Source: Acidobacteriota bacterium
Lineage (GTDB): Bacteria; Acidobacteriota; Thermoanaerobaculia; Multivoradales; Multivoraceae
Length of the DNA stretch: 64,000 bases
Assembly: GCA_003388555.1 (NCBI GenBank)
Contig: QQVD01000004.1
Location: 84,069-148,068, forward strand
Reading direction: 5' to 3'
Of the stretch, positions 49,822-60,391 are shown one piece after another. The position numbers were made by a program, and so were the translations under genes. The notes below the pieces were generated by a model, which worked only from the letters and a program-made list of their open reading frames with translations, searched no databases and had not been told where the DNA came from. Every line of letters starts with the position of its first letter. Within the stretch, counting starts at the first letter, position 1.

Positions 49822-52365
49822 TCAGGCGGAAGTGGAGGTCAGCCGATCGACGTCGTCGGCAGCGGCGCGCAGTCTCTCGAGGCGGGCCCTGATCTGCAGC
49901 TCGCGGCGGTTGCCGGTGAGCTGGTCGCCAGCGAGGGCGGAATCGAGCAGCGCCACGACACGAGGCTCGCGCGGATCCCGGGAGTGCAGCAGCTCTGCCA
50001 GGCGACCGCGATGCTCGGCCCAGCGGCCACCGCGCAGGCCCGCTGCCTCGGCCATGGCGATCGACTGCTCGAGGTCCTCGACCGCCTCACCGATCTCGCC
50101 GAGGGCGACCCGGACCTCGGCCGCTCGCGCCAGAGCGAGTGCGAGCGACGCGGTGTCGCCCGAGCCGGCGCTGCGCACCAGCGACAGTCCGAGAGCGAGG
50201 CTCGTGCGAGCCGCCGCCGGCTCACCGACCCCCGCCTCGGCACGCGCGAGCATCAGGTAGCGGTGGCCGTTCTTGATCTCGCCGACGCCGAGCCTGTCGC
50301 TCACCGCGATGGCGTCGCGGTAGTGACGGCGGGCCTCCGCCCAGCGACCGAGCTCGAGGGCGTAGAAGCCACAGTTGTTGCGTGTCGCCGCCACCTGCTC
50401 GGTGGAGTCGTCGCGCAGCTCGAGCAACTCGAGAGCGCGCAGCGACAGCTCGTAGGCGCGTGCGAAGTCGGCCTCGGCCCAGGCGCACGAGGCGCTGTTG
50501 GAGAGAGCCCCGCTGACGTTGTCGACCAGACTGGAGTCGGCGAGCTCGCCGCTGGCGAGCAGACGCTCGCCGACCGTGAGCACCGGCTGCACCACCGCGA
50601 GGCCCTCGTCGCAGCGGTAGAGCGTGCGCAGCACGAACAGGTATTCGGCACGCGTCGCCAGCTCGAGGTCGAGCACATCCTCGGCCTCTGGGGTCCGGCC
50701 GTAGGCCTGCTCGAGCACCTCGAGGACGCCCGCGAACGCCTCCGCCGAGGCCTCCCAGTCGCCGTCGGTCTGCTCGGCGTGAGCGGCAACGCGCAGCACC
50801 CGAGCGCGATGGATGGCGCTGACGCCTTCGGCCTCCTCGAGATACTCCGTCACACGCTCGAGCAGCGCGCGCGCTGCCTCGTGCTGCTGCAGGTTCTGGT
50901 GCAGACCCAGGATGGTCACCGCGAAGCCCACCCGATCGTCCGGCAAGAGGGCGTCGTCGGCCCAGAGTCGGTCAGAGGCCGCCTCGAGCACCTCGACCAC
51001 TCGCACTTCGGGGCCGCGCGAGACCCTCTGGTCGATGTCGGCGCTGCGGAAGATGTCGAGCAGGAAGGCGTTGGTGCGGTCGGCGCGGTCGCGGGCACGC
51101 TCGCTGGAGACGGCCTCCCGCCGAGCGGTCGCGGCCTGCTGCACGGCCACCGCGGCGGTAGCGAGCAGCGCGACGGCGCCGATGACGCTCATCGCGGTCG
51201 CCACGGCGTGACGCTGCACGAACTTGCGCACCGCGTACAGCCGGCCGCCGTCGACGGCCGACACCGGGAGTCCGTCGAGCAGGTGACGCAGGTCGCGACT
51301 CAACTCTTCGACCGTCGCATAGCGGTCCGCTGCCGCCGGCTCGAGGCAGCGCAGCACCACAGCGTCCAGCTCGCGCGACGTGTCGCGGGGGAGCGACCCA
51401 GAACCGGCAAGCAGACGCGGTGCCGGAGCCGGCGGCCGCTGTCGCACCTGGGTGTCGAGGCAGGTCGCCGCGTCGGCGCCGATCTGCGGCAGCACGAACG
51501 GCATGCGGCCGGTGAGCAGCAGGTAGAGCAGCACGCCGAGCGAGTAGACGTCGCTGGCGACCCCGATGGCCCGCCCGGAGAGCTGCTCGGGGCTGGCGAA
51601 ACCGGGAGTGAAGCCGAGGACCTCGTCACCGCGATCCGGATCTCCTCGATCGGGCGCGCTCAGCGCCCGGGCGACACCGAAATCGAGCAGCTTGGGCACC
51701 CCGTCGTCGCGCACCAGGATGTTCGACGGCTTGAGGTCGCCGTGCACGAGGAGGGCGCGGTGCGCCGCCTGCACCGCGTCGCAGACCTCGAGGAAGAGGC
51801 GCACCTTGGAGCGCCAGTCGAGCCCGCGCTCCCTGCAGTGGCGGGTAATCGGCTGACCGTCGACGTACTCCAGCACCAGGTAGACGTCGCCGCGCGCCGT
51901 CGAGCCGCCGTCGAGAAGCGAGGCGATGTTGGGGTGGTCGAGGTCGGCGAGGATCTGACGCTCCTGGGCCAGTCGCTCGAGCAGCCGCTCGGACACCGTG
52001 GCGGAGCGGGCCAGCTTGATCGCTGCGGTGTGCTGGTAGTCGCCGCGCCGCTCGGCGAGGTAGACGGCCCCCATGCCTCCCTCGCCGATCAGCCGCACCA
52101 GCCGGTAGTTGCCCACCACCTCGCCCAGTCGCGCCCGCGCCTCGTCTTGCGCCGCCCCGGCGACCCGACGCAGCTCCTCGTCGAGGGCTGTGAACTCGCC
52201 GGCGAGCGTCGAGTCGCCGTCGGCCTCGGCGGCCAGCGCGAGCAGTCGGTCGTGGTCGGCGCCCGGCGCCCGGCGCTGTAGGTGGGCTGCGCGCTCGGGC
52301 TCTGCGAGATCGAGCAGCTCGAGCAGCAACCGCGGCTCGGATGGCGGTTGCGGCCTGTCGCTCAC
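49822..52365 (-). CDS. transmembrane Ser/Thr protein kinase with TPR sensor region
   Basis: 847 residues. The kinase domain (about 85-350) has the Gly loop LIGEGGMGAVYLAE, Lys in AAIKLARS, HGDLKPSNILV (HGD rather than HRD) and DFGVA, and then FASPEQLSG and SDVYSLGVLLYLLLTG. One membrane helix (AMSVIGAVALLATAAVAV, near 400) separates it from a C-terminal ~430-residue TPR-like region presumably outside the membrane. The start is GTG 52365. The ECF sigma gene ends 42 bases upstream on the same strand, suggesting an ECF/kinase operon in which the kinase phosphorylates the sigma factor. Confidence 0.92.
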   Translation of the reverse strand: MSDRPQPPSEPRLLLELLDLAEPERAAHLQRRAPGADHDRLLALAAEADGDSTLAGEFTALDEELRRVAGAAQDEARARLGEVVGNYRLVRLIGEGGMGAVYLAERRGDYQHTAAIKLARSATVSERLLERLAQERQILADLDHPNIASLLDGGSTARGDVYLVLEYVDGQPITRHCRERGLDWRSKVRLFLEVCDAVQAAHRALLVHGDLKPSNILVRDDGVPKLLDFGVARALSAPDRGDPDRGDEVLGFTPGFASPEQLSGRAIGVASDVYSLGVLLYLLLTGRMPFVLPQIGADAATCLDTQVRQRPPAPAPRLLAGSGSLPRDTSRELDAVVLRCLEPAAADRYATVEELSRDLRHLLDGLPVSAVDGGRLYAVRKFVQRHAVATAMSVIGAVALLATAAVAVQQAATARREAVSSERARDRADRTNAFLLDIFRSADIDQRVSRGPEVRVVEVLEAASDRLWADDALLPDDRVGFAVTILGLHQNLQQHEAARALLERVTEYLEEAEGVSAIHRARVLRVAAHAEQTDGDWEASAEAFAGVLEVLEQAYGRTPEAEDVLDLELATRAEYLFVLRTLYRCDEGLAVVQPVLTVGERLLASGELADSSLVDNVSGALSNSASCAWAEADFARAYELSLRALELLELRDDSTEQVAATRNNCGFYALELGRWAEARRHYRDAIAVSDRLGVGEIKNGHRYLMLARAEAGVGEPAAARTSLALGLSLVRSAGSGDTASLALALARAAEVRVALGEIGEAVEDLEQSIAMAEAAGLRGGRWAEHRGRLAELLHSRDPREPRVVALLDSALAGDQLTGNRRELQIRARLERLRAAADDVDRLTSTSA

Positions 52366-52407: not shown

Positions 52408-52992
52408 TCAGCCGATCTCCGGGCTCGGATCGTCCTCGCTGCGCAGCCGGTCCCTCAGCCATAGGCGGGCGGCCTGCCAGTAGCGCTTGACCGAACGCTC
52501 CGAGCGCCCCAGCAGCGGCGCGATCTCCTTGAGCTGCAGCCCGGCGAAGTAGTGCATGTCGAAGACCCGGGCCAGCAGCGGCTCGGTCGTCGCGAGCTGC
52601 TCGAGCGTCTCACCGACGATCCGCCACTGGTCGGCGTCGAGCTGCGAGGCCATCGCCTCGATCTCGAGGTCCACCTTCTCACCATCGCGCTTCTTGGCGC
52701 CCTTGCGCCGCGCTCGGTCGATGAGCACCTGACGCATGTAGCGCGACAGCACCGCGATCACGTGGCCGCGATCGTTGAACCCCATCGGCGAGATGTAGAG
52801 CTTGAGGAACGCCTCGTTGACCAGCTCGGTGGTCTCGAGCGTCGGACTGTAGGCCTCACCGCGCAGGAGGTAGCGGGCGATCGAGCGTAGCTCTCGATAG
52901 GCGCTCCGAAACTGCTCCTCGCGCTCGAAGATGTCGGGGTGGAACCAGCCCGGGTCGTACTGCTCGGGCAGGTTCTGTGCGTCGAGGTTCAC
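52408..52992 (-). CDS. ECF sigma factor of the TIGR02999/ECF43-like type, paired with a kinase
   Basis: 194 residues. Region 2 reads SPTLETTELVNEAFLKLY, then GHVIAVLSRYMRQVLIDRARRKGAKKR. Region 4 reads EPLLARVFDMHYFAGLQLKEIAPLLGRSERSVKRYWQAARLWLRDRL. The acidic DAED normally found before LVQE is replaced by ETTE. In the ECF43 protein EcfP of Vibrio, a threonine in this position is phosphorylated by its partner kinase to allow polymerase binding; applying that here is inference. GTG 52992 fits the family length. No anti-sigma gene is present. The ORF track extends through an unrelated shadow of the glycosyltransferase gene. Confidence 0.87.
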   Translation of the reverse strand: MNLDAQNLPEQYDPGWFHPDIFEREEQFRSAYRELRSIARYLLRGEAYSPTLETTELVNEAFLKLYISPMGFNDRGHVIAVLSRYMRQVLIDRARRKGAKKRDGEKVDLEIEAMASQLDADQWRIVGETLEQLATTEPLLARVFDMHYFAGLQLKEIAPLLGRSERSVKRYWQAARLWLRDRLRSEDDPSPEIG

Positions 52993-53274
52993 GGGCGATG
53001 CGATACGAAAAGAAACGGCGGCAGCGAGGAGCGGGCGCCGCACTGCGCACCGCCGGTCTCGCTCGCGGCATCCCGCAGCATAGCGGAGGGACCCGGGGGG
53101 TCGGCGGACGCCGACCGCCGACAGTGGTCCAGCACGAGCCGCGAGCGTGGATAGAGTCGACCCATCCTTCGACGCCCCTGTTTCCCTGCCGGCGCCAGTT
53201 CCCCGCCGGTTGGAGCCTCCGCAAGCGCCACTGTCGACTGCAGAGAGACGCCGGCGTCCGCAGCGAGCTCCCGC

Positions 53275-55178: not shown

Positions 55179-55985
55179 ATGACCAAGCGCAAAACGTTCC
55201 GCCAGCCGAGTACCGACCTGAAGCCCCACCCGCAGACGGGCGCCCCGCCGAGGCGACGCAAGCGGGTGCGGCCCGGCGCGGTCCTCGGCGCCTTCCTGCT
55301 CGCCATGCTGGTCGCCGCTACGCCGGCGCTGGCCGACGACAAGGACGGCTCTGGGCTCGATGCCCACGCCCGTATGCAGCACCTGCACGTGCTGCTGCAC
55401 GAAGGCCTCGGCCTGGTGCTCGACGGCGCCGATCTCGTGATGGTCGCAAACCTCGGCCTGGACCCATCGATGGACCGCAAGAGCTCCGAGCACGGCGACG
55501 CGGTGATGAAGGCCGGCCGCGAGCTGCTCGAAGCGGCGGGCGGCGCCATCGAGGGGATCGGTGAGTCCGGCTCCGAGCGCCTCGCCTACACCCGTGAGCT
55601 GCAGCGTGCCTTCGTCGCGGTCGCCGAGCATCTCGAGGGCATGCAGGCCCCGAAGCTGAGCCAAGAGAAAGATCTCGGCCTGCACCACATGCACCTGATG
55701 ACCCACCACGCGCTGCGCAGCGCCGCCACCGGCGCCAACCTGAACATGCTCGCCAGCGTCGACTCCTCCGGCGAGGTAGACGAGCTCTCCGATCGCCACG
55801 GCGAGTGGCTGCTGTCGAACGCCAAGAACACCATCGCACGGGTGCTCGAAGGCCCTTCGATGCAGCGCCTGCACGATGAGGGCGGCTACGACACGGAGCT
55901 GATGTCGCTGACCCACCAGCTCGCTCAGTCGGCCGACGAAGCCATCGAGCTGATGCTGCAGATGCCCGAGCGCGCGGAGATGTAG
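55179..55985 (+). CDS. exported protein of two tandem His/Met-containing repeats (unknown family)
   Basis: 268 residues. A basic N-terminus and signal peptide (AVLGAFLLAMLVAATPALA, likely cut before DD) precede two repeats with a period of 102 residues. Unit 1 starts HLHVLLHEGLGLVLDGADL (residue 68) and unit 2 HMHLMTHHALRSAATGANL (residue 170). They align without gaps for about 40 positions: HxHxxxH, L, GAxLxMxA, D, S and HG are shared. A second helix in each (LAYTRELQRAFVAVAEHL, LMSLTHQLAQSADEAIEL) keeps the period. It looks like a helical bundle with conserved histidines, possibly metal-binding. GGGAGG precedes ATG 55179. I recognise no named family. Confidence 0.75.
   Translation: MTKRKTFRQPSTDLKPHPQTGAPPRRRKRVRPGAVLGAFLLAMLVAATPALADDKDGSGLDAHARMQHLHVLLHEGLGLVLDGADLVMVANLGLDPSMDRKSSEHGDAVMKAGRELLEAAGGAIEGIGESGSERLAYTRELQRAFVAVAEHLEGMQAPKLSQEKDLGLHHMHLMTHHALRSAATGANLNMLASVDSSGEVDELSDRHGEWLLSNAKNTIARVLEGPSMQRLHDEGGYDTELMSLTHQLAQSADEAIELMLQMPERAEM

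Positions 55986-56074: not shown

Positions 56075-60391
<4,317 letters not shown>

Follow-up and report, generated by a model that had tools for sequence, protein, structure and literature searches.

The gene under study spans 55179..55985 on the forward strand (stop codon included) of the window, i.e., the 64,000-nucleotide stretch of DNA analysed here, and encodes a two-unit His/Met protein of 268 amino acids in an open frame without internal stops, with a ribosome-binding-like GGGAGG just 5' of the start at 55179. Read by eye, the N-terminus resembles a signal peptide (residues 1–52, TPALA/DD; 55179..55334, + strand), with a basic stretch, a hydrophobic core and an end at TPALA-DD, and the protein is presumably exported. 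Two units of three helices each follow on the same strand: unit 1 comprises residues 65–151 (55371..55631) and unit 2 residues 167–258 (55677..55952).

The adjoining gene encodes a VWA protein (56078-58096, - strand; TIGR03436, acidobact_VWFA, above the cut-off), a match suggestive of an acidobacterial origin for the window, and on the same strand lie an ECF sigma factor of the PF07638 type (52411-53034) and, after it, a Ser/Thr kinase with a long C-terminal region (49825-52365), which together form a common acidobacterial pair. A PMT_2 glycosyltransferase and LigA complete the neighbours read, among which no copper gene was found. The preliminary description, made from the sequence without database searches, held that the neighbours give no function; the glycosyltransferase, VWA protein, sigma factor and LigA are silent on copper. 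Elsewhere, the genome has multicopper oxidases and no YtkA domain.

The internal repeat and the family it belongs to

The protein had been described as a gapless tandem duplication with a period of 102 residues, and the self-comparison agrees: the repeat is gapless at offset 102, starting at H68/H170, and the best ungapped BLOSUM62 self-segment scores 73 at this offset (next-best offset, 27), against a maximum of 55 in 2000 shuffles. Aligning the two halves, a check suggested in that description, gave a gapped score of 78 vs. a shuffle maximum of 62. The clearly matching core (HxHxxxHxxL...HG) covers ~40 residues and the remainder of the period is weaker, such that 14/106 aligned positions are identical between the halves at offset 102. 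At the level of the family, units 1 and 2 match each other with E ~4e-32 (profile self-comparison).

The earlier remark that no named family is known with this pattern also stands, as profile searches of Pfam, NCBIfam, PHROGs and PDB sequences yielded no family for it, the PDB profile search giving a chance match only. Weak matches to Pfam, NCBIfam and PHROG entries, among them Ribosomal_S6, DUF2138, Neurensin and phrog_19356, were dismissed, each involving one member or one half only. Membership in DUF305/CopM was likewise rejected: PF03713 matched neither the window protein (E<=10) nor any of 28 family members (E<=1). Direct searches for relatives were no more productive: the window sequence found no match in a protein search of genome contigs, plasmids, phages and viral contigs gave none, and searches with the single sequence in sets of 60, 149 and 396 genomes from the phylum returned weak matches only, all without the motif. 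A motif search of the phylum with 2 mismatches recovered, besides the gene itself, a few scattered matches—as many as the reversed control.

Because Pfam, NCBIfam, PDB, plasmids, phages and the 396 phylum genomes gave no relative, the residues common to both halves (H-x6-L-x5-G-x2-L-x-M-x10-D-x5-HG) were converted to a degenerate DNA pattern, which occurs twice in the window and in none of 100 shuffles. In slightly relaxed form it matched 77 stretches among 84,980 prokaryote genomes, ~30 of which code for clear relatives, several with the pattern twice, 106–110 codons apart. These relatives come from Nitrospirota (several groups, including Nitrospira), Desulfobulbaceae, other "Deltaproteobacteria" MAGs, Methylacidiphilaceae, Methylacidimicrobium and Nitrococcus, and they too have hydrophobic export-type N-termini, some lipoprotein-like (by eye). 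A unit profile built without the window protein matches its unit 1 at E 2.8e-12 and its unit 2 at E 4.4e-21 (Z=100000), which places it in this family; the full-length family profile, which includes the window protein, matches it at E 1.0e-76. Scanning 21 carrier genomes with the profile revealed further copies (<=4 matches per genome), while among 198 genomes sampled from one carrier's phylum only 4 had a family match. Within its own phylum the window protein is the sole copy seen, none of the 396 genomes sampled holding a relative even with the family profile. Judged from these sequence matches, the family is real, sparse and unnamed.

In Nitrospirota and Desulfobulbaceae, family members generally have two units, and a single unit is found in Methylacidiphilaceae and Nitrococcus. 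The repeat is thus no peculiarity of the window gene, as might have been read from the preliminary description, since the two-unit form is common to much of the family. A recent duplication confined to this gene was set aside: in a tree of units (weak support, long branches), each window unit groups with the like-numbered units of its relatives, and the duplication is therefore probably older than the gene.

Predicted structure and proposed ligands

AlphaFold2, run with 28 family sequences, gave confident models both for the mature window protein (pLDDT 89.5, pTM 0.88) and for an archetype, a Met-rich Nitrospirota member (pLDDT 91.9, pTM 0.89). In both, two three-helix units stand in tandem; the window protein is accordingly predicted to be all-helical, with six helices, in keeping with the helical protein expected earlier. 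For both models, PhoU structures turn up repeatedly near the top of the PDB fold matches (TM <=0.54 for the window protein, <=0.51 for the archetype), although no fold match of either has an E below 0.02. PhoU is likewise built of two tandem three-helix bundles, an arrangement present in the helix lists of both models, and one might picture the family as a periplasmic offshoot of the PhoU fold in which acidic metal clusters have been replaced by His and Met. We regard such descent as very improbable, as PhoU is cytoplasmic and binds metal through Asp/Glu, and a profile comparison (hhalign) with 11 PhoU proteins encoded by the same genomes gave a probability of 0.1%. With neither the window protein nor family members matched by PhoU (PF01895) in Pfam, kinship at the sequence level was not found, and the likeness is, as far as the models go, one of shape.

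Conservation was assessed over the 53 other units (i.e., the window protein left out). His occupies columns 4, 5, 7, 12, 42 and 83 of the unit in 42–45 of them and column 67 in 38/53, and Met occupies columns 16, 25, 29, 31, 46, 63 and 79 in 41–48, with the proviso that columns 7, 14, 20, 23, 25, 36, 42 and 43 are in the search pattern, where conservation is partly imposed, as it is not elsewhere. The conserved histidines on which the preliminary description had rested its case, and whose conservation it proposed to check in homologs, are thus kept across the family together with many Met positions. Its count of four per unit holds in part: the histidines at columns 5, 7 and 42 (H68/H70/H105 and H170/H172/H207) are kept in relatives, but H74/H176 is not a family ligand because its column, 11, is Asn in 45/53 other units. 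The family's further His falls one residue past this column, where unit 2 has H177 and unit 1 has Glu.

After the columns had been seen, we split these ligands into set A (columns 4, 5, 7, 12, 63, 67, 79 and 83) and set B (columns 16, 25, 29, 31, 42 and 46); from the helix register we infer that set A occupies one end of the unit, and set B its middle and the part towards the opposite end. Of the window protein's two units, unit 2 retains 8/8 set-A ligands in the family's letters (HHHH-M-H-M-H). These residues—H169, H170, H172, H177, M228, H232, M242 and H246 (55683..55916, + strand)—are the proposed metal ligands, and the helix register suggests that they cluster in space. Unit 1 retains H68, H70, M88 and H105, with 2/8 set-A ligands kept, and of set B both units keep 2/6. 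The completeness of set A in unit 2 compares with only 11/26 of the other conserved non-pattern columns kept there (P 0.007, or 0.03 to 0.05 at stricter thresholds, for sets chosen after seeing the columns). Overall Met content is ~6%, vs. roughly 14–20% in most two-unit relatives. The equal sites that the preliminary description envisaged in the two units are not found, as unit 1 is without 6/8 of the set-A ligands. Because unit 2 has 8/8 of set A and unit 1 2/8, and most other Mets are gone, the window protein probably has one site left, i.e., the putative metal site of unit 2.

In two genomes that also have a typical copy, divergent paralogues were observed in which the losses are reversed relative to the window protein: here it is unit 2 that lacks almost all of the set-A ligands.

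Such losses might also mean that the window copy is decaying or repurposed, its scaffold now serving structure or protein binding, with metal binding lost. The 2/8 and 2/6 tallies, the long branches in the unit tree, and the absence of copper neighbours and of YtkA from the genome are all compatible with this fate; indeed the lack of copper neighbours and YtkA, the loss of unit 1 and the loss of most set-B Mets are points against copper binding by the window protein. Yet unit 2 has its full set A in the family's own letters, and the gene has an intact frame with a start and a ribosome-binding-like stretch, its product being modelled with confidence, such that we consider decay or repurposing unlikely. 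A retained, metal-binding unit 2, even with no copper genes alongside, seems to us the better account of the window protein.

Copper genes around the relatives and a proposed function

Many relatives, by contrast with the window gene, have copper genes as neighbours. At 8/23 family loci (15 genomes) a YtkA-domain gene starts <1 kb downstream on the same strand, where 0.007 would be expected from the number of YtkA domains per genome; several of these genes are YtkA-multicopper-oxidase fusions. At four loci (L146, L147, L148 and L156) there is a multicopper oxidase with an N-terminal YtkA domain, a domain pairing that, to our knowledge, has not been named. YtkA-domain proteins have a part in CuA assembly in B. 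subtilis (PMC13344008). Genes for TolC-like, CusB-like and CusA/CzcA proteins (CusCBA) lie just upstream at L151 (TIGR00914 score 1217 vs. a cut-off of 701), and a PCu(A)C copper chaperone is encoded two genes downstream at L154. The preliminary description had suggested a metal- or heme-related site in an exported helical protein. Its first half gains from these data, as His and Met are kept and copper genes adjoin the relatives far above chance, consistent with a putative metal site; the heme reading is unsupported because the window protein has no CxxCH and the relatives' context is copper.

The single-unit members examined (Nitrococcus, Methylacidiphilaceae) have no copper neighbours, and TonB-dependent receptors or unrelated genes are found instead. 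Three such genes, from Nitrococcus and Methylacidiphilum, have TonB-dependent receptors close by (of siderophore type in Nitrococcus), and their products could have a role in metal uptake there.

Does the family then handle a metal other than copper? Ligands of this kind would be compatible with Ni, Zn or Ag as well; a MauG/CCP di-heme peroxidase is encoded near the L146 gene, with a homologue at L171; and the siderophore-type receptors beside the single-unit Nitrococcus genes could likewise be taken to indicate the handling of iron/heme or of some other metal (Ni, Zn, Co, Ag, Fe), with the adjoining multicopper oxidase as a ferroxidase-like partner. Set against this, CusCBA with its CusB-like adaptor, PCu(A)C and YtkA all indicate copper or silver, Cu(I)/Ag(I) are the ions preferred at Met-rich sites, and CxxCH is absent from the window protein and the relatives read. 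We consider another metal unlikely and favour copper.

Taken together, the reading we find reasonably likely is that of an unnamed, exported, all-helical family in which each intact unit is a putative Cu(I) site, and of which the window member has set A complete in unit 2 only. Each intact unit (~95 residues, three helices) would hold copper, mainly Cu(I), through its conserved His/Met cluster. The set-A site would be formed by HHxH and a further H where helix 1 begins, an M and an H in the segment joining helices 2 and 3, and an M and TH where helix 3 begins; a second, Met-rich site (set B) may lie around the middle of the unit and the helix 1–2 turn. The family would bind excess periplasmic copper and either buffer it or pass it to YtkA-domain proteins, the YtkA-multicopper oxidase, CusCBA or PCuAC. 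The window protein would be a divergent, Met-poor member, its unit 1 mainly structural, since its one complete site would be set A of unit 2.

Among known systems, CopM of Synechocystis would be the closest analogue of the putative copper-binding family. CopM (tandem DUF305, PF03713; PDB 5fej, 5ffa-5ffe) is exported, as the family presumably is, and like it helical, His-/Met-rich and made of two tandem units; Cu(I) binding has been shown for it, and, as with relatives of the window protein, it adjoins copper efflux genes, in its case of an RND system (PMC4335983). However, no family member matches PF03713, the family unit is a three-helix one with a different motif, and CopM and DUF305 structures are absent from the 50 best fold matches of the window and archetype models. 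The window's genome itself has three DUF305 matches, one of them belonging to a protein that combines two tandem DUF305 units with a long C-terminal part; CopM-like proteins are therefore apparently present there as well.

PcoE/SilE, CusF/SilF and CopK are small periplasmic proteins that use Met/His for Cu(I)/Ag(I) and are found with Cus or Pco systems; CusF and CopK have beta folds. Their sequences differ from those of the family, which is predicted to be helical and has no Pfam, NCBIfam or PDB sequence match. PcoE is also given as such a copper protein in PMC4335983. By analogy, the family may work as CopM, PcoE or CusF does, i.e., as a periplasmic His/Met copper binder. Csp copper storage proteins, which are Cu(I)-storing helical bundles (PMC9484137), have sites in Cys-lined four-helix bundles, whereas the family is almost without Cys. 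PhoU, the best-matching solved fold, shares the tandem three-helix architecture and no sequence kinship.

For the family as a whole, we give roughly even chances to a fuller description: a hitherto undescribed group of putative periplasmic copper buffers or chaperones, with one or two PhoU-shaped units lined with His and Met, working with the YtkA-multicopper oxidase in Nitrospirota and Desulfobulbaceae, occurring as single-unit versions in verrucomicrobial methanotrophs and Nitrococcus, and represented in the window by a minimal version with one site. As a divergent outlier, the window protein matters less on its own. Because Pfam and NCBIfam both lack the unit profile, its relatives go unannotated, and recognising the unit would name proteins in Nitrospirota, Desulfobulbaceae, Methylacidiphilaceae and Nitrococcus and provide testable partners (the YtkA-multicopper oxidase, CusCBA and PCuAC). 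If copper binding is true, two PhoU-shaped three-helix units lined with His/Met would constitute a new periplasmic copper scaffold.
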